In this document: positions 46,790 through 60,519 of the stretch, one piece after another
How positions within the stretch are numbered: the first letter of the stretch is position 1
How the letters are laid out: the number at the start of each line of letters is the position of its first letter
Assembly: GCF_000517625.1 (NCBI RefSeq)
Contig: NZ_CP007056.1
Location: 62,001-126,000 of the forward strand
Reading direction: 5' to 3'
DNA from: Halostagnicola larsenii XH-48
GTDB taxonomy: Archaea; Halobacteriota; Halobacteria; Halobacteriales; Natrialbaceae
Length of the DNA stretch: 64,000 bases
Translations under genes and position numbers: made by a program
The notes under the pieces: generated by a model
Databases searched by the model: none
The model's input: the letters and a program-made list of their open reading frames with translations, nothing else
What the model was told of the DNA's origin: nothing

Positions 46790-47683
46790 ATGACAGGCGA
46801 CGTAGCGACGCTCGAGGAGGCCGTCTCTCGAATCGATTCTGGAAGTTCGATCGCGACCGGACTCGCGCTCGAGCACTCGATTCCGTTCGCGGCGGGACAC
46901 GAACTGCTCCGACAGGGTATCGACGATCTCACGCTGATCGGGCCGATTAGCGACCTGCTGTTCGATCAACTGATCGGCGGCGGTGCGGTTGCTGGCGTTC
47001 GGGCCGCCTGGGCAGGGAACGTCAGCGCCGGGACGGGGTACCGGTTCAGAGAGGCCATCGAAACCGGCGCGATTACCGTCGAGGACCACTCCAACTTCAG
47101 TATCGCGCTGGCGTTACAGGCCGGGGCGATGGGCGTCCCGTATCTGCCGACGAAGTCGCTTCTCGGGAGCGACATTTTCGAGCGCAGCGACCTGTTCCGC
47201 GAGGGGACCGACCCCTTCGGTGGCGACCGACTCGCGCTCGTTCCGGCCATCGAACCGGACTGGGCGATCGTACACGCCCAGCGGGCCAGTCCCGCGGGCG
47301 ACGCGCATCTCTGGGGGAACACGGGCATTACCGAACCCGCGATCGGTGCCGCGGATAACGTCCTCGTGACCGCAGAAGAGATCGTTTCTCCCGAGGTAAT
47401 CAAGAGCGATCCGAGCAGAGTTGCGATCACTCGAGACGCGGTGACGGCGGTCGCGGAGTGTCCCTTCGGCGCGCACCCCTCGCCCGTGGCGGGCTATTAC
47501 AACCGGGACAACGAGTACTACCTCGAGTACAGCGGGCAGACGAAAACCCAGGCGGCGTTCGAGGAATGGGCCGAGAAGTGGGTCTACGGCGTCACAGACC
47601 GGGCCGAGTACGAGACGCTCGTCGAACGGGAGCTGGGGATCACCGATCCCACAATCGCCGCGGAGGTGCAGTATGGCCAGTGA
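46790..47683 (+). CDS. CoA-transferase family I subunit A (glutaconate CoA-transferase/IpdA-like)
   Basis: A 297-residue alpha subunit of the family-I CoA-transferase fold ('ATGLALEHSIPFAAGHELLR', 'LTLIGPISDLLFDQLIGGG'). Members either move CoA between carboxylic acids (glutaconate, 3-oxoacids) or, like IpdA of IpdAB, hydrolyse a ring beta-keto bond. The sequence alone does not decide between these. The gene is divergent from the liv operon, overlaps subunit B by eleven bases and precedes an aryl-CoA ligase, so a role in activating or opening an aromatic intermediate is reasonable. Confidence 0.88.
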   Translation: MTGDVATLEEAVSRIDSGSSIATGLALEHSIPFAAGHELLRQGIDDLTLIGPISDLLFDQLIGGGAVAGVRAAWAGNVSAGTGYRFREAIETGAITVEDHSNFSIALALQAGAMGVPYLPTKSLLGSDIFERSDLFREGTDPFGGDRLALVPAIEPDWAIVHAQRASPAGDAHLWGNTGITEPAIGAADNVLVTAEEIVSPEVIKSDPSRVAITRDAVTAVAECPFGAHPSPVAGYYNRDNEYYLEYSGQTKTQAAFEEWAEKWVYGVTDRAEYETLVERELGITDPTIAAEVQYGQ

Positions 47684-48446
47684 GGAGTACACGGATCGGG
47701 AACTGATGGTCAGCGCGGCCGCGAGCGAGATCGACGACGGCGACACCGCGTTCGTCGGCATGCGGCTGCCGCTGATCGCGTTCCAGGTCGCGGTGAGCAC
47801 CCACGCTCCGAACTCGATGGCGGTCTACGAAAGCGGCGTCGTGCGAGATTCTCCTGCCGAGGGGTTCATCCACACCATGTGTGATCTCCCGAACCTGAAT
47901 CGTGCGGTGTCGACGACTGGGATGATCGATATCATGTCCCGCCTCCAGCGCGGTGACGTCGACGTCGGTTTTCTGGGCGGTGCGGAGATCGACCGCTACG
48001 GCAATCTGAACACGACGTGGGTTCGGGGCGGCGAGCAGGAGATTCGACTCCCCGGAAGCGGCGGTGCCTGTGACATCGCCTGTCTGGCCGATCGGACCGT
48101 GTTGCTCATGCCCCACGAACCGCGTCGGTTCGTCGAGTCGGTCCACTACGTCACCAGTCCCGGCCACTCGAGCGACGGGCCCGGGCGGAATACCCATCCG
48201 GATTCGGGCGGCGGACCGAGCGCGCTCGTCACCTCGAAGGCGACGTTCGGCTTCGACGACGATGGCGAACTCTACCTCCGAAGCCTCCACCCGGGTGCGG
48301 ACGAAGCGTCTGTCCTCGAGGACTTCCCGTGGGAGGTACAGACGGCATCGGATGTCGGCGAGGGCTCCGTGACCACGACGCCCGAACCGACGGGCGAAGA
48401 ACTCGAACTGATCCGGACGTTCGATCCGGACGGGTTCTGGACCTGA
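47673..48446 (+). CDS. CoA-transferase family I subunit B (glutaconate CoA-transferase/IpdB-like)
   Basis: A 257-residue beta subunit. 'MAVYESGVVRDSPAEGF' carries the Glu-x-Gly context that supplies the nucleophile in family-I transferases. 'GGAEIDRYGNLNTTWV' and 'GSGGACDIACLADRTVLLMP' are typical of the GctB branch. It works as a heteromer with subunit A, and its ATG lies within the end of that gene. It is followed by the 2-aminobenzoate/benzoate-type ligase after about 100 bases. Confidence 0.88.
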   Translation: MASEEYTDRELMVSAAASEIDDGDTAFVGMRLPLIAFQVAVSTHAPNSMAVYESGVVRDSPAEGFIHTMCDLPNLNRAVSTTGMIDIMSRLQRGDVDVGFLGGAEIDRYGNLNTTWVRGGEQEIRLPGSGGACDIACLADRTVLLMPHEPRRFVESVHYVTSPGHSSDGPGRNTHPDSGGGPSALVTSKATFGFDDDGELYLRSLHPGADEASVLEDFPWEVQTASDVGEGSVTTTPEPTGEELELIRTFDPDGFWT

Positions 48447-48549
48447 TCGAACCCCTCGTTTCTCTCATCCGATATCATACATTCCAACCAGTCTCTCGAG
48501 AGAAAAACCGTTAGGTATATCATTTTAAGCTATGATGAACTACTCGTAC

Positions 48550-50181
48550 ATGCAGCAAACCGTTGCAGCGGAGTTTCTACCAGACGAGGAGAACGCTCCG
48601 GACTACATCTATCCGGTACCGGAGGCACACTACCCTCAACAGCTGAACGTGGTCGACGAACTGGTCGACCGTCACGTTCGGGAGGGACGCGGGGACAACG
48701 TCGCCGTGCGCTTCGAGGACCAGGAGATCACCTACGAGGAGTTACAGTCGCGGGTCAACCGACTGGGAAATGCGCTTCGTGATTCCGGCGTCGAAGCCGG
48801 CGACCGCGTCGTCGTCCGATTCCCGAACCGGCCGGAGGCCATTGTCTCCTGCCTCGCAACCCAGAAGATTGGTGCCGTCGCGCTACCGTCGATGAAACTG
48901 CTTCGGGCGAAGGAACTCGAGTACATCATCAACAACGCCGAAGCCACGACGGTTATCGTCTACGACGACCTCCTGGGAGAAGTCGAGAACGCGCTTCCCG
49001 AGCTAGAAACCGTCGAGAACGTCGTCGTTGCCGAGCGAAACGGCGTCGATCACAACTACCGAAGCTACGACGACTTACTCGATGGGGCGAGCGCGGACCT
49101 CGAGGCCTACGAAACGGACCGCGACGATCTAGCGTTGATGCTCTACACGAGCGGCACCACGGGGCGACCGAAGGGGGCGGTCCACACCCACAGACACGTG
49201 CTGGCGACGGCGGATTCGTACGCGCGATACTGCCTCGAACCGACGGAAGACGACGTCTTCGGCGGCAACCCTCCGCTTCCGTTCGCCTACGGCTACGGCG
49301 ACCTCGTTACGTTCCCCCTCCGGTTCGGCGCAACTACGAGCCTGGTCGAGGACGCCTCGCCCGGCGACCTCCTCGAGGCGGTCGAGGACCACGGGATTTC
49401 CGTGCTCTGTTCGATTCCGACGGGCTTCAATCAAATCCTCTCGCAGCATCCCGACGGGCCGGCGGAGTACGACATCTCGTCACTCCGGGTCGGGCTCAGC
49501 GCGGGGGAGCCGCTGACCCCGACGACCTTCGAGAGTTTTCGGGACGAGTACGGGATCCCGCTTCTGGACGGCATCGGAACGACGGAGATGCTCCATATCT
49601 TCATCAGTCACCGCCACGACGAGGAGATCGATCCCAGCGCGACCGGCTTTCCGGTGCCCGGATACGAGTGCAAGATCGTCGATCCCGACACGGGGGAGGA
49701 CGTCCCTCGCGGCGAACCGGGACTGCTCGCGGTCCGGGGTCCGACGGGAATCGAGTACTGGGATCGCCCGGAAAAACAACTCGAGTCGGTCGACGACGGC
49801 TGGTCGATCCCGGGCGATATCTTCGTCCACCGCGAGGACGGCCGGCTGGAGTACAAATCCCGCAGCGACGACCTCATCATCTCGAGCGGGTACAACATTC
49901 CCGGCCCCGAAGTCGAGGCGGTCGTCGAGGAACACGACGCCGTCTCGGAGGTCGCCGTCATCGGCAGCCCCCACGATGAGCGCGGCGAGATCGTCAAAGC
50001 GTTCGTCGTATTGACCGATGACACGTCGGTATACGACGGCCTCGTCGACGAGATACAGAACCACGTCAAGAATACGCTCGCACCGTACAAGTATCCGCGA
50101 GCCGTCGAGTTCATGGAAACGCTCCCGCGCACGGAAACCGGGAAGATTCGCCGGACAGAACTTCGAGAGCACGAACGATAG
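48550..50181 (+). CDS. 2-aminobenzoate/benzoate-type CoA ligase (AMP-forming)
   Basis: A 543-residue ANL ligase. 'ALPSMKLLRAKELEYIINNA' is the hallmark of 2-aminobenzoate- and benzoate-CoA ligases, which read MPLLRAKELAYI. The ATP loop is 'MLYTSGTTGRPKGAVHTHR', then 'IGTTEMLHIFISHRHD', and the catalytic lysine is in 'PRTETGKIRRTEL'. It should make an aryl-CoA, feeding the nearby epoxidase. A TATA-like CATTTTAAGC about 27 bases before 48550 favours that leaderless start; an ATG at 48532 would add six residues. It is not a PaaK-type phenylacetate ligase, so the aryl substrate may not be phenylacetate. Confidence 0.88.
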   Translation: MQQTVAAEFLPDEENAPDYIYPVPEAHYPQQLNVVDELVDRHVREGRGDNVAVRFEDQEITYEELQSRVNRLGNALRDSGVEAGDRVVVRFPNRPEAIVSCLATQKIGAVALPSMKLLRAKELEYIINNAEATTVIVYDDLLGEVENALPELETVENVVVAERNGVDHNYRSYDDLLDGASADLEAYETDRDDLALMLYTSGTTGRPKGAVHTHRHVLATADSYARYCLEPTEDDVFGGNPPLPFAYGYGDLVTFPLRFGATTSLVEDASPGDLLEAVEDHGISVLCSIPTGFNQILSQHPDGPAEYDISSLRVGLSAGEPLTPTTFESFRDEYGIPLLDGIGTTEMLHIFISHRHDEEIDPSATGFPVPGYECKIVDPDTGEDVPRGEPGLLAVRGPTGIEYWDRPEKQLESVDDGWSIPGDIFVHREDGRLEYKSRSDDLIISSGYNIPGPEVEAVVEEHDAVSEVAVIGSPHDERGEIVKAFVVLTDDTSVYDGLVDEIQNHVKNTLAPYKYPRAVEFMETLPRTETGKIRRTELREHER

Positions 50182-51120: not shown

Positions 51121-51405
51121 TCAGGGGCTCTCGTCGGTTCGAATGCGGAGGTCGGATCGGGGCTTCGCGATGCAGGTCAGCGCGTATCCTTCCTCTTTCT
51201 CGCTCTCGGAGAGGAACATTCCCTCGGTCTGGTCGACTTCGCCGTCCTCGACGACCATCCCGCAGCAGACGCCACAGACACCCATCCGACACTGATACGG
51301 GGGTGTGAGACCGGCTTCTTCGGCCGCCTCGAGCACCGGCTTGTTCGCCGGCACTTCGATCGTCCGACCCTCGTCGATAAACTCGACGGTGTAAGTCTCG
51401 ACCAT
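51121..51405 (-). CDS. Plant-type 2Fe-2S ferredoxin
   Basis: A 94-residue ferredoxin with the cluster motif 'CRMGVCGVC' (Cys-x4-Cys-x2-Cys) and the fourth Cys in 'YALTCIAKP'. The sequence around the cluster resembles the C-terminal ferredoxin domain of PaaE, the reductase of phenylacetyl-CoA epoxidase. No PaaE flavin/NADPH-binding domain is encoded in the window, so this small protein is the natural candidate to deliver electrons to the divergent PaaABC-like oxygenase. It follows the GNAT gene by three bases. Confidence 0.9.
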   Translation of the reverse strand: MVETYTVEFIDEGRTIEVPANKPVLEAAEEAGLTPPYQCRMGVCGVCCGMVVEDGEVDQTEGMFLSESEKEEGYALTCIAKPRSDLRIRTDESP

Positions 51406-53058: not shown

Positions 53059-53463
53059 ATGTCGAGTGCACGCACAAACCCAACGGAATCCGTGGAATCC
53101 GTAGAACCCGATCTGGCCGGGGAGTTCGTCGAGGGGCGTCGCGCCGATGCGACGCCGTTCGAGCGCGAACTCTGGGACATGATCGACGAGATTCCGGATC
53201 CGCACATTCCCGTCAGCCTCGTGGAGATGGGAATGATCTACGACGTCGAAGTAACGAACGGTCACGTCGCCGTCGAGATGACCTACCCGTGTATGGGCTG
53301 TCCGGCCTACGACATGATACAAAACGATATCAGGAGCTGTCTGTCCCTGACCGACGGCGTCGACGAGGTCGACGTCGAGGTCGTCTGGGACCCGGTCTGG
53401 TCGAAGGACATGCTCACCGAACCGGTCCGCGAAAAGATGCGCGAGTCCGGAATCAGCCTCTAA
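53059..53463 (+). CDS. paaD: PaaD N-terminal half: MIP18-type (DUF59) protein
   Basis: A 134-residue protein with the MIP18/PaaD fold ('EIPDPHIPVSLVEMGMIYDV', 'TYPCMGCPAYDMI', 'DPVWSKDMLTEPVREKMRE'). Bacterial PaaD continues after this with a zinc-ribbon tail; here the protein ends at 'ESGISL'. The missing ribbon is encoded as a separate gene at the end of the same operon (54442-54618). MIP18 proteins assist iron-sulfur or metal assembly and PaaD is needed for epoxidase activity in bacteria. The ATG follows the paaA stop by two bases. Confidence 0.92.
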   Translation: MSSARTNPTESVESVEPDLAGEFVEGRRADATPFERELWDMIDEIPDPHIPVSLVEMGMIYDVEVTNGHVAVEMTYPCMGCPAYDMIQNDIRSCLSLTDGVDEVDVEVVWDPVWSKDMLTEPVREKMRESGISL

Positions 53464-53471
53464 CCCGATCT

Positions 53472-53681
53472 ATGAAGTACGAAGTATTCGCACGAATAAA
53501 CCAGGGTGACGATACCATCCACGTCGGTACCGTCACCGCACAGAGCGACAGACTAGCGCGGATGTACGCCTACAACACCTTCGACGAGGAAGACTGGAAC
53601 TACCTGGCCGTCGTCCGGGAAGAAAACCTGCTCGAGGTCAGCGGCGACCAGCCCAAACGCGAGGTGGCGGCCGGTGAGTGA
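53472..53681 (+). CDS. paaB: PaaB-like small subunit of the epoxidase
   Basis: A 69-residue protein matching PaaB ('YEVFARINQGDDTIHVGTV', then 'AYNTFDEEDWNYLAVVREEN'). PaaB bridges PaaA-PaaC units in the bacterial complex. It is shorter than the usual ~95 residues, lacking part of the C-terminal tail. It starts eight bases after the paaD(N) stop, and its end overlaps the GTG start of paaC. Confidence 0.88.
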   Translation: MKYEVFARINQGDDTIHVGTVTAQSDRLARMYAYNTFDEEDWNYLAVVREENLLEVSGDQPKREVAAGE

Positions 53682-54438
53682 GTGGCCCGACCCGGCGGTC
53701 GACTACGTGCAGGCGATTTCCGATACGAAACTCGTCCTCGGACAACGGTACGCGGAGTGGAGCCTCTCCGGCCCCTCGCTCGAGGACGATATCGGGGGTG
53801 CGAGCGCGGCCCAGGAGGAGATCGGCCACGTTCGCCAACTCGCGCGCGAACTCGAGGGTCAGGGACGCGACCTCGAATGGATAAACGGCCAGCGGGACCC
53901 GGACGAGTTCGCGAACGCCGCCTGTCTCGACCGCCTCGAGGGAAGTTGGACGGAGTACGTCGCGTCGGTCGCGCCGGCAGACCGCGCCGCGTGGTATCTG
54001 CTCGACGCGATCGATCGAGACGATCTAGACGGCCTGATCACCAAGATGGGCGAAGACGAGTACTTCCACCTCGAGTACCACGACGCTCGCCTCGAGACGC
54101 TCGCCGAGGAAGATCCGGAAACGGTCCAGAACACGCTCGAGACGACGTTACCGCAGGCGCTCGCGCTCATCGGCCCGGCCGCCTACGACGAGGATGAGGA
54201 CCCGGTCTACACCACCGGGTTCACGGACCGATCGGTCGCCGAGATTCGCGAATCCTACATCGACCACTACCGACGGCTCTTCGAGGGAACCGACGTCTCG
54301 CTCGAGGCCGTCGAGTGGGACGAACCCGCGCTCGACGACTGGGACGAAAAGCGGCGGCGGTCGGGCTCCGGCGCGATCAGCCAAACGGACGTCGAGCAGC
54401 TCCGAGGCGAGAAAAACCAGCTGTTTACGATGAACTAA
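53674..54438 (+). CDS. paaC: PaaC-like subunit of the epoxidase, retaining metal-ligand motifs
   Basis: A 254-residue ferritin-like protein. In bacterial PaaC the second di-iron site is largely lost and the subunit is structural. Here two Glu-x2-His motifs remain, 'SAAQEEIGHVRQLARELEG' and 'KMGEDEYFHLEYHDARLE', along with a Glu in the first helix ('RYAEWSLSG'), so it may still bind iron. The start is GTG 53674, overlapping the end of paaB by eight bases. It forms the PaaA-PaaC heterodimer core. Confidence 0.9.
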   Translation: MSEWPDPAVDYVQAISDTKLVLGQRYAEWSLSGPSLEDDIGGASAAQEEIGHVRQLARELEGQGRDLEWINGQRDPDEFANAACLDRLEGSWTEYVASVAPADRAAWYLLDAIDRDDLDGLITKMGEDEYFHLEYHDARLETLAEEDPETVQNTLETTLPQALALIGPAAYDEDEDPVYTTGFTDRSVAEIRESYIDHYRRLFEGTDVSLEAVEWDEPALDDWDEKRRRSGSGAISQTDVEQLRGEKNQLFTMN

Positions 54439-54441
54439 CCA

Positions 54442-54618
54442 ATGACCGACGACCGCTCCGAATCGACCGTGTTATGCCCGTTCTGTGGCGCTGCGGACAC
54501 GGAACAGGAGTCCGCGTTCGGGAGTGAAATCTCGAAGACGCAGTACTACTGCAACGGCTGTAACACGATGTTCGAACGGATCAAATACGACGGCGCGAAC
54601 CCGGAAACGGGCCGGTAA
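54442..54618 (+). CDS. PaaD C-terminal zinc ribbon encoded as a separate small gene
   Basis: A 58-residue protein starting three bases after paaC. 'LCPFCGAADTEQESAFGSEI' then 'TQYYCNGCNTMFERIKY' gives two CxxC pairs in the same order and spacing as the C-terminal zinc ribbon of bacterial PaaD (CPRC...SEFGST...YRCxxC...FDYFK). Together with the gene at 53059-53463 it would reconstitute a complete PaaD. It is a real gene that is easily missed because of its length. Confidence 0.87.
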   Translation: MTDDRSESTVLCPFCGAADTEQESAFGSEISKTQYYCNGCNTMFERIKYDGANPETGR

Positions 54619-54718: not shown

Positions 54719-54742
54719 GGTGGGCCTCAATGAGTGTCTTGT

Positions 54743-55585
54743 ATGCAACTCCGACCGTTCAGTGAGCTGGATCTGGAGTATTTCACCACAGAGGTAACCG
54801 ACCACGTGGGCACCCTTCGACTGGACCGTCCGCCGGCGAACGCACACGACATCAACGTGCTGTTGGAGCTCCAACGCGCAGTCGAGGCGGTTCGGTTCGA
54901 CGAGAGCGTGCGCGCGGTCCTCTTCGGGAGTTCGAACGACAAGTTCTTCTCGACCGGATTCGACATCAAGGTCTTACAGGAGAAATCGGGTCGACAGGTC
55001 GGCTACGCGAGCCAGACGAGCAAAGAGATCATCATGAAGATGCGGACGACCGACACCATCTTCATCGCGATGGTTAACGGCCACTGCATGGGCGGCGGCC
55101 TCGAGCTCGCGCTGGCCTGTGACTTCCGCTACGTCGGCAACGACGAGAGCTACAACATCGGCATGCCCGAGATCCACCTCGGTCTCATCGCGGGTGAGGC
55201 GGGCACCCAGTTGCTCCCGCGGTACATCGACCGCTCGGAAGCGCTCGAGATGATGCTTACCGGCGAGACCCTCACTCCGGAAGAAGCGACGGAGAAGGGC
55301 ATCTTCGACGAGATCCACCCCCCGGACGAGATCGAAGACGCCGCCTTCGAGTTCGCCGAACTGATCGCCTCGAAAGCGAGCGTCGCCGTCGGCAACAACA
55401 AGCTGGCGGTCAACGAGGGCCTCGAGATGCCGCTCTCTGACGCGCTGGCACACGAACGCGAACTGCAGAACCGCTTGCTCGGCTCCGACGTCGCCAAAGA
55501 GGGCGTCGACGCCTTCCTCGACGACCGCGAGCCGGACTTCCTCGGCGTCGAACTCGGCGACGAAGAGCCCGGTTCCGACGAGTAA
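54743..55585 (+). CDS. Enoyl-CoA hydratase (PaaF-like candidate)
   Basis: A 280-residue crotonase with both hydratase glutamates: 'NGHCMGGGLELALACDFRYV' and 'NIGMPEIHLGLIAGEAGTQ'. 'DKFFSTGFDIKVLQE' is the oxyanion-hole region. The ATG at 54743 is preferred to a GTG at 54734 from the position of the TATA box. Its place directly after the epoxidase operon suggests that it hydrates the 2,3-dehydroadipyl-CoA-like product, as PaaF does. The C-terminus is acidic and slightly longer than usual. Confidence 0.9.
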   Translation: MQLRPFSELDLEYFTTEVTDHVGTLRLDRPPANAHDINVLLELQRAVEAVRFDESVRAVLFGSSNDKFFSTGFDIKVLQEKSGRQVGYASQTSKEIIMKMRTTDTIFIAMVNGHCMGGGLELALACDFRYVGNDESYNIGMPEIHLGLIAGEAGTQLLPRYIDRSEALEMMLTGETLTPEEATEKGIFDEIHPPDEIEDAAFEFAELIASKASVAVGNNKLAVNEGLEMPLSDALAHERELQNRLLGSDVAKEGVDAFLDDREPDFLGVELGDEEPGSDE

Positions 55586-57568: not shown

Positions 57569-58984
57569 TTACTTCGGAACCGTCGTCTCGTCCTGGTCGC
57601 CGAGCAGTTCGTCCAGCCCGAACTCCGCCCAGCGCTCGCTCAGCGCCTCGAGGATGTTCTCCGAGAACGCCGTCTCGAAGGTCACCCGCGGTGCGATGTA
57701 CTCTTCGTCCCATCGCGGGTCCCAGGTCGCGTTGACGTAGAGCCGGGAGCCGGTCTCGCCGTCGCGTCGATACCCGGTCGCCGTCGCGGCGGGCGCGTTC
57801 GGTTCGCTGAAGGTCCAGTCGTTCGCCGGATGGGCTTTCACCCACATGTCGTTGACCGCTCGAGCGAGGTTCGTCGGATCCGCCTGCTCGTCCAGTACGA
57901 CGACTTTGTCGAACAGATTCGAGAAGGAAAACAGCGTGTTCGCGAGTTGCCACTCGAAGCCGGCGTAGAGGATTTCGCTCGAGACGATACAGAGCCCGAG
58001 GCGGCCCTCGACGGGGAGCTGGATCCACTCGACCGGCGAGACGCCCCAGTAGTTGTTGACCCGCCTGAACAGCTGTGCGGCTTCGACGAGACTCGTGAGG
58101 TGCACGTCGTCGGTCATCGGACCGTTCGGCGGTGTAAACGAAACGATCGGCGACTCTCGCGTGGCGATCCGGTCGGCAGAAACTTCGATGGTCGCCGTGT
58201 CACCCGTCAGCTCCCAGGCGGCGTTCGGTCCGCGCGGTTCGGCCTCGACGACGCGTAGCGTGCCGTCGATCCGGACTTCCGCGTCGGCCGGTACGACCCG
58301 CGAATCGACGGTCGCCATCGGAATATCGGCCAATCCCGCGGCGAGTTCGGGAACCGCGGGCGTGGTCCGGTCCTGCGTCCACCCCTGCAGTGCAGCGAGC
58401 AGCGAACACGCCGACGCGCCGAGAACGACGCTCGCGGTCGCCGCCGGCTCACACCACTCCGCGAACGCCTCGGGAACCGAGAGACGGAGCGTTGTGCTGT
58501 GGAGGGCCTGTCCGCGAATCGGCACCCAGGTCGTCGTTCCCCGCTTCTCGGCGACGAGCACTCCGAGCGAGACGAGCGGATACCGGTCGGTCCCGACCGT
58601 TGGCAGGCCGAGGGTGTGTAGGTCTCCAGCCTCGTCGATGTCGGTCGCCGCCGGCTCGGTTTGCCGGTCCTCGACAGAGGCTGTTTCCCGTCCGGCCAGT
58701 CGCTCGAGCAGTTCGACGTACGAACAGTCGGGGCCGAGCCCGAGCGCCTGTGCGATCCGCTGGCCGGACTGGTGTGATCGGCTCGAGAACTGGCTGGGCC
58801 CGCCGTAGACGCCGCTCGCGAACCGCACCCGGCCGGGCGTAGTTTCGAACAGCGCTGCGGGAGCGCCGCCTCGGATCGCTTCCCGCGCGACGGTCGCGGC
58901 GGTTTCGTCCCAGTGAACCCCTTCGGTGATCGTCACCAGATCGTTCGTTTGCTCGAGGCGGTCGAGCTGCGTTCGAAGCGTCAT
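57569..58984 (-). CDS. UbiD-family protein lacking the catalytic motif
   Basis: A 471-residue UbiD-fold protein. Where active UbiD enzymes have the Glu-rich motif ending EGPFG-E/D, this one reads 'EVRIDGTLRVVEAEPRGPNA' and lacks the acid-glycine-proline-phenylalanine pattern. The fold is recognisable from 'VNNYWGVSPVEWIQLPVEG' and 'VNDMWVKAHPANDWTF'. It is therefore probably a non-decarboxylating partner. It overlaps the catalytic UbiD gene by four bases, and unequal UbiD pairs are known in phenylphosphate carboxylase. Confidence 0.82.
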   Translation of the reverse strand: MTLRTQLDRLEQTNDLVTITEGVHWDETAATVAREAIRGGAPAALFETTPGRVRFASGVYGGPSQFSSRSHQSGQRIAQALGLGPDCSYVELLERLAGRETASVEDRQTEPAATDIDEAGDLHTLGLPTVGTDRYPLVSLGVLVAEKRGTTTWVPIRGQALHSTTLRLSVPEAFAEWCEPAATASVVLGASACSLLAALQGWTQDRTTPAVPELAAGLADIPMATVDSRVVPADAEVRIDGTLRVVEAEPRGPNAAWELTGDTATIEVSADRIATRESPIVSFTPPNGPMTDDVHLTSLVEAAQLFRRVNNYWGVSPVEWIQLPVEGRLGLCIVSSEILYAGFEWQLANTLFSFSNLFDKVVVLDEQADPTNLARAVNDMWVKAHPANDWTFSEPNAPAATATGYRRDGETGSRLYVNATWDPRWDEEYIAPRVTFETAFSENILEALSERWAEFGLDELLGDQDETTVPK

Positions 58985-60519
58985 CGGTCAGGGCCCTCCA
59001 TCTCGATGAACGGGTCGGTTTCCGATTCGACTCCCGCCCGCTCGAATTCGAGTCCGGCCCGCTCGAGTATCTTCCGCGCTCGGTACGCCGCTTCGATATC
59101 GTCTTCTCGGGAGAAGTCGTCCGCGGCCGTCGCCGATCGATCGTCGGGCGCAGAACGCGTCGCGTCGATATATGCCTTCGCCGATTTCGCCTTCGACGTG
59201 CCGGTCTGCACGTCGCCCTTCTCGGTCGGCGTCTGGTAAATGTTCAGCGGAACCTTCGGCATCGTTTCGACGCCGAACTGGTGGAAGTCGGTGTCCGGGT
59301 CGGCGTGGAGCGCGAGTGCCTCGAGGACCGCCCGCTGATCGAGCGGGTCCACGTCGCCGTCGACGAAGACGAAGAAATCCACGTGGAGCATTCCCCAGGT
59401 GGTGAAGATGAAGTTCGCGAGTTCGTGGAGGTAGCCGGCATCCGTTGTCTCCGTCGAGATAACGTAGACTGTTCTGGGCGTCGATTTCCAGGGGACGCAA
59501 CTTTCGACGTCGAAGCCGGCAGCCCGGAGGCCGAGCGTCGCGTCGGGCCCGACGCAGCCGACTTCCATCGAACTCGTGGAGTTTTCGGAATAGCCGACGC
59601 CCGTCCCTTCGACGCAGAAGGGAATAATCGGGTCCTCTCGGTGGGTTATCGCCGAGACTCGCAGGAGGGGCATCGATCGCCGGGGACCGTGCATGTAGCC
59701 GAAGTAGTCGCCGAACGGTCCCTCGTCTCGGCGTTCGTTTGGGACGATTTCCCCCTCGATGACCAGTTCGGCCGACGCGGGCACCATGAGATCGTTCGTC
59801 TCGGCGGGGACGAGTTCGATGGGTGCCTGTTTCAATCCCCCCGCGAACTCGGCTTCGCTCCTGCCCGTCGGGATCCACATGACGGAGGTGTACTGCACGG
59901 CGGGTTCGACGCCGACCGCGATGGCGACCGGCATCGGCTCGTCGCGTCGCTCGTACTTGTAGTAGTAGAGGTTCGGCGTCTGTTCGCCAGCCAGCAGTAA
60001 TACGCTCGCGTTCTCGCCGTCGTGGATCATCGACCGGTGGTTCGACCAGTCGACCCACGACGAGTCGGGATCGGGCGCGATGAGCGTGTGGACGTTCGAG
60101 TATCGCCCGCCGTCGCCGCCGTGGATGTACGGCCAGGGAAACTCGAGCATGTCCACGTCGTCGCCGCTGACGACGAACTCCTTGCACGGCGCGTCGTCGG
60201 CCGAGACGGTCACCGGGTCCCGCGGATCTTTCAACCGATCGATGACGATTTCGTAGTACTCGCGCGCCGAGAGGTCCGGCGGGAGCCCCAGTCCGAGTGC
60301 GATCCGATCCCAGGGTCTATTCTGGGTTCCTCTGTACGGATCGCCAACGAGCCGAGCCGACTCGACGTCGTCGAAGACGGGGATCTTGCTGTCTTCTTTG
60401 TTCAACAGCATCGTGACGGCGCTGGCCTCGAGATTCCAGGACGTCGGCTCGGCGATTCGGTGGAGGTCACCTCTCGCTTCGAGTGTCTGTAGATACGCTC
60501 TGAGACTAGCGACCGTCAT
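58981..60519 (-). CDS. UbiD-family (de)carboxylase, prenylated-FMN dependent
   Basis: A 512-residue UbiD enzyme with the conserved 'ELVIEGEIVPNERRDEGPFG' continuing 'DYFGYMHG', containing the catalytic acid, and 'DWSNHRSMIHDGENASVLLL' in the prFMN-binding region. It (de)carboxylates an aromatic or unsaturated acid. The prenyltransferase UbiX is not in the window. It overlaps the small acidic gene upstream and the degenerate UbiD gene downstream by four bases each, so the three proteins are likely made in equal amounts and may form one enzyme. Confidence 0.9.
   Translation of the reverse strand: MTVASLRAYLQTLEARGDLHRIAEPTSWNLEASAVTMLLNKEDSKIPVFDDVESARLVGDPYRGTQNRPWDRIALGLGLPPDLSAREYYEIVIDRLKDPRDPVTVSADDAPCKEFVVSGDDVDMLEFPWPYIHGGDGGRYSNVHTLIAPDPDSSWVDWSNHRSMIHDGENASVLLLAGEQTPNLYYYKYERRDEPMPVAIAVGVEPAVQYTSVMWIPTGRSEAEFAGGLKQAPIELVPAETNDLMVPASAELVIEGEIVPNERRDEGPFGDYFGYMHGPRRSMPLLRVSAITHREDPIIPFCVEGTGVGYSENSTSSMEVGCVGPDATLGLRAAGFDVESCVPWKSTPRTVYVISTETTDAGYLHELANFIFTTWGMLHVDFFVFVDGDVDPLDQRAVLEALALHADPDTDFHQFGVETMPKVPLNIYQTPTEKGDVQTGTSKAKSAKAYIDATRSAPDDRSATAADDFSREDDIEAAYRARKILERAGLEFERAGVESETDPFIEMEGPDR

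Follow-up and report, generated by a model that had tools for sequence, protein, structure and literature searches.

In Escherichia coli and in canonical bacterial clusters, PaaD (TIGR02159) is one polypeptide of about 165 residues in which a MIP18 domain is followed by a four-cysteine ribbon with the motif FGS, and it is encoded after paaC in clusters that also carry PaaA and PaaC. Passages on PaaD in two reviews state that ring epoxidation needs the protein in vivo and can do without it in vitro, which suggests a role in maturation, and still list its function as unknown (PMC9493321, PMC4498308). For haloarchaea, RefSeq holds a separate MIP18 protein (PaaD, NF041868) and a ribbon protein of about 55 residues ('PaaE', NF041869), whose genes lie side by side behind paaC (order A-B-C-D-ribbon). 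A haloarchaeal two-gene PaaD is therefore already implicit in two NCBIfam models, and Pfam includes the ribbon domain. We found no description of a two-gene PaaD, or of a lineage with the order A-D-B-C-ribbon, in searches of the open-access literature, a coverage that does not prove absence. The MIP18/SufT and CIAO2B Fe-S assembly proteins have the same fold and conserved cysteine region as the MIP18 protein described below, and to our knowledge they are not paired with a PaaD-type ribbon or a di-iron oxygenase.

The window, meaning the whole stretch of 64,000 nucleotides that was analysed, corresponds to positions 62001-126000 of a 574-kb haloarchaeal replicon. Its ORF listing contains an operon in the order paaA, MIP18 gene, paaB-like gene, paaC and ribbon, all on the + strand, so that PaaD takes the form of two proteins whose genes are separated by paaB and paaC. 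The features of the operon and its surroundings are as follows.

48532..50181, + strand: acyl-CoA ligase, nearest family benzoate-CoA ligase (TIGR02262, 372.0 bits against a cut-off of 375.25)
51121..51405, - strand: 2Fe-2S ferredoxin (TIGR02008, 86.7 bits, above the cut-off of 81.15), present at 33/33 haloarchaeal loci L090-L122
51409..51906, - strand: GNAT acetyltransferase adjoining the ferredoxin (PF00583, 47.3 bits), present at 33/33 loci L090-L122
52136..53056, + strand: PaaA-like di-iron subunit of a second lineage (PF05138, 208.4 bits; TIGR02156, 134.9 bits, below the cut-off of 280)
53059..53463, + strand: MIP18/DUF59 half of PaaD, 134 residues (PF01883, 63.3 bits)
53472..53681, + strand: short PaaB-like subunit, 69 residues (PF06243, 19.7 bits, below the cut-off of 27); relatives keep its position
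53674..54438, + strand: PaaC-like subunit (PF05138, 72.8 bits; TIGR02158, 40.7 bits, below the cut-off of 133.35)
54442..54618, + strand: stand-alone zinc-ribbon half of PaaD, 58 residues (PF23451, 58.9 bits against a cut-off of 27, E 3.9e-16)
54734..55585, + strand: crotonase-fold enoyl-CoA hydratase/isomerase (PF00378, 178.7 bits), downstream in most haloarchaeal relatives

The two halves are separate ORFs: 3 nt lie between the paaC stop and the ribbon start, and 978 nt between the stop of the MIP18 gene and the ribbon start. Both ExxH motifs of PaaA were invariant in an alignment of 11 PaaA sequences. The PaaB-like protein (53472-53678) also weakly matched TIGR04031, a family of radical-SAM-partnered candidate peptides (19.1 bits against a cut-off of 57.2). 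Further neighbours are a CoA-transferase pair, a 4HBT-family thioesterase-like protein, an MBL-fold protein, two UbiD genes and a PaaG-like crotonase. The CoA-transferase pair (46790-48446; PF01144), which many haloarchaeal relatives also carry upstream of the ligase, had no NCBIfam match at 1e-10; it may serve an IpdAB-like ring opening. For the UbiD-family gene at 57572-58984, the N- and C-terminal UbiD domains were matched and the central rift domain (PF01977) was not, a point on which its neighbour at 58984-60519 differs.

The original prediction placed the two halves of PaaD in separate genes at opposite ends of the core subunits, and on this PF01883, PF23451, TIGR02159 and BLASTP agree. 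Along the 146 positions of TIGR02159, the MIP18 gene covered positions 1-89 (78.1 bits) and the ribbon positions 103-144 (35.9 bits) with zero overlap, both scores being below the curated cut-off of 108.15. Alignment with the fused PaaD of E. coli by BLASTP likewise gave complementary segments, the MIP18 protein matching residues 8-110 (36% identity) and the ribbon residues 125-163 (38% identity), and the MIP18 gene thus ends where the ribbon begins in the fused protein, as had been predicted. The window proteins also scored below the cut-offs of the haloarchaeal NCBIfam models (114.6 against 180 for NF041868 and 38.4 against 100 for NF041869). A PaaD ribbon with two CxxC pairs is recognised at 54442-54618 by both TIGR02159 and PF23451, and no single polypeptide in the window carries both PaaD domains. 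Based on these sequence comparisons, we concluded that the operon encodes the MIP18 and ribbon domains of PaaD as two separate genes.

Among 34 relatives of the same cluster type from archaea and bacteria, ribbon residues C12, C15, F26, G27, C37, C40, F44, E45 and K48 (window numbering) were invariant, and the Ser following the Gly was not. Between the 44 distinct ribbon genes of haloarchaea, the differences at codon positions 1, 2 and 3 were 0.25, 0.22 and 0.45, and this concentration at third positions indicates a protein under selection rather than a chance ORF. For structural comparison, the two proteins were folded separately as single chains. The model of the MIP18 protein (pLDDT 85.8) resembled the DUF59 structures 3cq1, 3lno and 1uwd as well as CIAO2B, a member of the eukaryotic Fe-S targeting complex, and by sequence the protein matched 5ird, 3lno, 2cu6 and 1uwd. 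The ribbon model was of moderate quality (three strands, pLDDT 70.9). Its Foldseek matches were weak, none reaching E 0.001, and included the zinc ribbons of NrdR and RPB9, and by sequence the ribbon matched TFIIE (E 3e-4); the model itself is consistent with a zinc ribbon and says nothing more specific.

Profile searches of the whole genome returned one PaaA/PaaC pair and one strong ribbon match (58.7 bits), with five weaker ribbon matches of which the best scored 18.8 bits. A full-length PaaD elsewhere in the genome would have spoken against a functional division of the protein; ribbon and MIP18 profile searches of this genome found none, although they did find four other MIP18-domain genes. 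Among viral contigs, a search for fused PaaD gave eight pattern matches and no relatives.

The term 'epoxidase core' in the original prediction was over-specified, as no subunit reached the equivalog cut-off for phenylacetyl-CoA epoxidase (PaaA 134.9 against 280, PaaB 23.8 against 85.45, PaaC 40.7 against 133.35). By these profile scores the operon is not a canonical phenylacetyl-CoA epoxidase and belongs to a separate Paa-like lineage, and we describe it as a putative Paa-like CoA-ester di-iron oxygenase. Its substrate is perhaps benzoyl-CoA or a similar aryl-CoA, a guess prompted by the benzoate-CoA-ligase-like gene nearby. The 2Fe-2S ferredoxin (51121..51405) is the likely electron donor in the haloarchaeal version. 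The ferredoxin and the GNAT gene adjoin each other at all 33 haloarchaeal loci L090-L122 and are mostly divergent from paaA.

We surveyed 194 haloarchaeal genomes, scoring at most 32 candidates per genome in the first round so that ribbon counts are minimum values. The ribbon was present in at least 112 genomes and PaaA/PaaC in 111, all 111 of which had the ribbon; the sole genome with a ribbon and without PaaA/PaaC had a partial, 31-bit match (G117). Two cluster types were found: the canonical type 1, ordered A-B-C-D-ribbon, and type 2, that of the window, ordered A-D-B-C-ribbon. Of the 194 genomes, 29 had type 2; its PaaA was close in 27 of these and divergent in the other two. In type 1, D and ribbon were separate at 17/17 loci for which the gap was measured; it was -4 to +3 nt at 16 of these and about 66 nt at the other. 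They were likewise separate at an outlying type-1 locus (L064). Type-1 ribbon frames of about 190 residues from stop to stop were considered as fusions and rejected, the ribbon being in another frame than the MIP18 gene or beyond a stop. The layout seen in the window is thus conserved, but a PaaD in two genes is no peculiarity of this operon: the canonical clusters of haloarchaea have one too, with the pair adjacent to each other. In the control genome of Sulfolobus acidocaldarius, PF05138 matches were found with no match to the PaaD ribbon, and a Paa-like oxygenase without the ribbon may therefore exist.

The ribbon gene had been expected to be easily lost in annotation, and it often is. On named haloarchaeal plasmids it is mostly unlisted or 'hypothetical' (the plasmid gene table being incomplete), and in the gene tables shown for Thermus and Agrobacterium plasmids it is unannotated. 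On the Thermus plasmid pHB5018c (L088:4980-5171), the annotated end of paaC and the annotated start of a downstream enoyl-CoA hydratase overlap the ribbon ORF, and the hydratase start is probably too early. Where the ribbon has been named, the name misleads. In Haloferax mediterranei the RefSeq pair is annotated as paaD and a 55-residue 'paaE', and both this ribbon (L177:4321-4488) and NF041869 are called '1,2-phenylacetyl-CoA epoxidase subunit PaaE', a wrong name by homology because E. coli paaE is a reductase with a CDS of 1071 nt. None of the 194 haloarchaeal genomes had a match to the PaaE reductase that passed the curated cut-off; 17 had weak matches of at most 96 bits, and the genome of the window had no TIGR02160 match at E 1e-20.

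To follow type 2 beyond haloarchaea, we scanned species genomes with a type-2 PaaA alignment and obtained 135 relatives. We retained 80 loci, of which 33 are haloarchaeal (L122 and 32 of L090-L121) and 47 bacterial (L123-L169). The bacterial loci come from Gemmatimonadota, Acetothermia/Bipolaricaulota, Fraserbacteria, Eisenbacteria, Marinimicrobia, and MAGs labelled Gammaproteobacteria or Rhodospirillaceae. Counting the kept haloarchaeal loci and further ones including L065, the order A-D-B-C-ribbon was found at 54/54 (44 distinct ribbon sequences, as some genomes were sampled twice), with L120 excluded because its contig ends inside paaA. The consistent presence and synteny of the ribbon after paaC in haloarchaeal relatives, on which the original prediction depended, is therefore upheld. 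Among the bacterial loci, 42/47 had D before and the ribbon after paaC, which is 42/43 of those not cut by a contig end; L125, L136, L156 and L157 end at a contig edge in or just past paaC, and L129 had no ribbon after paaC. In type-2 loci PaaB lies between D and C, and the ribbon start overlaps the paaC stop or trails it by a few bases (haloarchaeal median 3 nt).

The bacterial operons of Gemmatimonadota, Acetothermia/Bipolaricaulota, Fraserbacteria and Marinimicrobia share this gene order with the window, as do those on the Thermus thermophilus plasmids pHB5018c and pTF19b and on Agrobacterium pAtCG920. Their PaaA is 53-60% identical to that of the window in the bacterial type-2 loci and about 50% identical in Thermus, with Agrobacterium more distant. 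Unlike the window, they had no linked ferredoxin or GNAT gene that we could find, and mostly no linked ligase or UbiD. For the ferredoxin, a strict motif scan of at most about 8 kb per side found no 2Fe-2S protein at 19/19 non-haloarchaeal type-2 loci, which leaves the di-iron protein as the constant partner. Based on the sequence relationships of these loci, we concluded that Paa-like oxygenases of this type form a lineage of their own, shared by haloarchaea and several groups of bacteria, and in the type-2 clusters sampled with a ribbon, D and ribbon were separate throughout Archaea and Bacteria.

Some loci depart from the common arrangement. In a divergent haloarchaeal cluster (L073:4545-7693) the MIP18 gene is on the opposite strand with the ribbon still after paaC, so the two genes need not be co-transcribed. 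A second MIP18 gene lies upstream of paaA at 30/47 bacterial type-2 loci (among L136-L169, e.g. L147:7603-7899), which makes the partner of the ribbon ambiguous there. In Halogeometricum pallidum (L119:8001-9075), paaA is in two overlapping pieces, perhaps through a frameshift, and the second copy (L120) lies at a contig edge.

Whether PaaD was divided or joined in the course of its history bears on the word 'split' in the original prediction, of which the two genes stand but the direction may be reversed. Fused PaaD was found in E. coli, Pseudomonas, Azospirillum and other canonical bacterial clusters. For 150 Gemmatimonadota genomes, 101 had the ribbon and 115 a PF05138 match, single and weak in 15 of these; all 100 genomes with at least two PF05138 matches had the ribbon, fused or not, and the sole ribbon-only genome had a 29-bit match. 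The ten best ribbon loci of this phylum (L219-L228) were all D-ribbon fusions in one frame within canonical clusters, and PaaA and PaaC of eight canonical Gemmatimonadota clusters grouped with those of E. coli in a tree. In each of nine bacterial genomes and two plasmids bearing a type-2 locus, the type-2 pair came with one strong ribbon; one of the nine genomes had an extra weak match to each model. Since canonical clusters are fused and type-2 clusters separate within Gemmatimonadota, the state of PaaD tracks the oxygenase lineage and not the taxon.

The tree was built from 48 PaaA and 48 PaaC sequences and rooted by the PaaA/PaaC duplication, using a quick search with SH-aLRT as the only support measure; its canonical bacteria were Proteobacteria, Actinomycetota and Gemmatimonadota, with Rhodococcus L181 omitted on account of an insertion element that interrupts its paaA. 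For both PaaA and PaaC, the canonical sequences of haloarchaea and of bacteria joined with support of 100. The type-2 rows fell outside this canonical group with support of 88 for PaaA (88-90 across trees) and of 87 for PaaC, apart from L073, whose long PaaC row was misplaced, and an earlier tree of 100 rows gave the same main groups. The fused or separate state required one change on each half of the rooted tree if separate genes are ancestral and more if the fused form is, which makes separate genes the cheaper older state. By parsimony, and with limited sampling, separate genes may thus be older, with one fusion in canonical bacteria. The opposite history, in which PaaD began as one protein and underwent gene fission, perhaps twice (in haloarchaea, and in the Paa-like lineage with the pieces later moved apart), would account for the adjacent D and ribbon of canonical haloarchaea, whose gap of -4 to +3 nt in 16/17 is what a fission would leave. 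We nevertheless consider it doubtful, given the additional changes that it demands of the duplication-rooted tree and the separate state of every type-2 cluster sampled with a ribbon in both domains of life. We give an even chance to a combined reading in which the operon stands for a family of CoA-ester di-iron oxygenases, so far uncharacterised and present in both domains of life, that keeps a two-protein maturation factor, and in which the one-piece PaaD is a later fusion of ancestral partners.

With respect to function, we infer the association of the two proteins, their maturation role, their client and the substrate of the oxygenase from the data above, and hold with reasonable but restrained confidence that the separately made PaaD domains of this Paa-like lineage most likely act jointly in maturing the di-iron oxygenase. 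This role is favoured by the link to PaaA/PaaC in every genome counted, by the lack of a linked ferredoxin at the 19/19 loci scanned, and by the natural fusion, the one-piece PaaD of canonical bacteria indicating that the two domains are linked. In the mechanism that we propose, the MIP18 protein and the ribbon would bind each other and the oxygenase subunits and would assist in loading the PaaA-like subunit's di-iron centre or in protecting it, with the MIP18 protein handling iron or Fe-S and the ribbon docking it on the client.

The RefSeq name PaaE suggests instead that the ribbon could be a rubredoxin-like electron carrier in place of the missing reductase. Its two CxxC pairs could hold iron and no haloarchaeal genome of the 194 had a PaaE reductase above cut-off, but the ribbon matches the PaaD ribbon family and not the reductase, its structural matches, weak as they are, are zinc ribbons, and haloarchaeal type-2 clusters already have a dedicated 2Fe-2S ferredoxin. 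As the E. coli equivalent is moreover part of PaaD, which passages in the reviews describe as dispensable in vitro (PMC9493321, PMC4498308), we regard an electron carrier as improbable. The two downstream UbiD genes, together with a vanillate decarboxylase small subunit among the weak Foldseek matches, raise the thought of a VdcD-like small subunit of the nearby UbiD decarboxylases; UbiD queries, however, matched 0/47 of the bacterial loci L123-L169, most of which bear the ribbon, and in all genomes counted the ribbon goes with PaaA/PaaC, so that we give this idea hardly any credence.

These results may have implications for how PaaD is studied and named. The RefSeq label 'PaaE' masks both the two-gene PaaD and the missing PaaE reductase in haloarchaea. 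Operons with separate domains allow each PaaD domain to be deleted or purified alone, and if PaaD is indeed a two-protein factor that was later fused, its function would be dissectable with natural single-domain proteins and the one-piece PaaD of the E. coli type may be the newer version.
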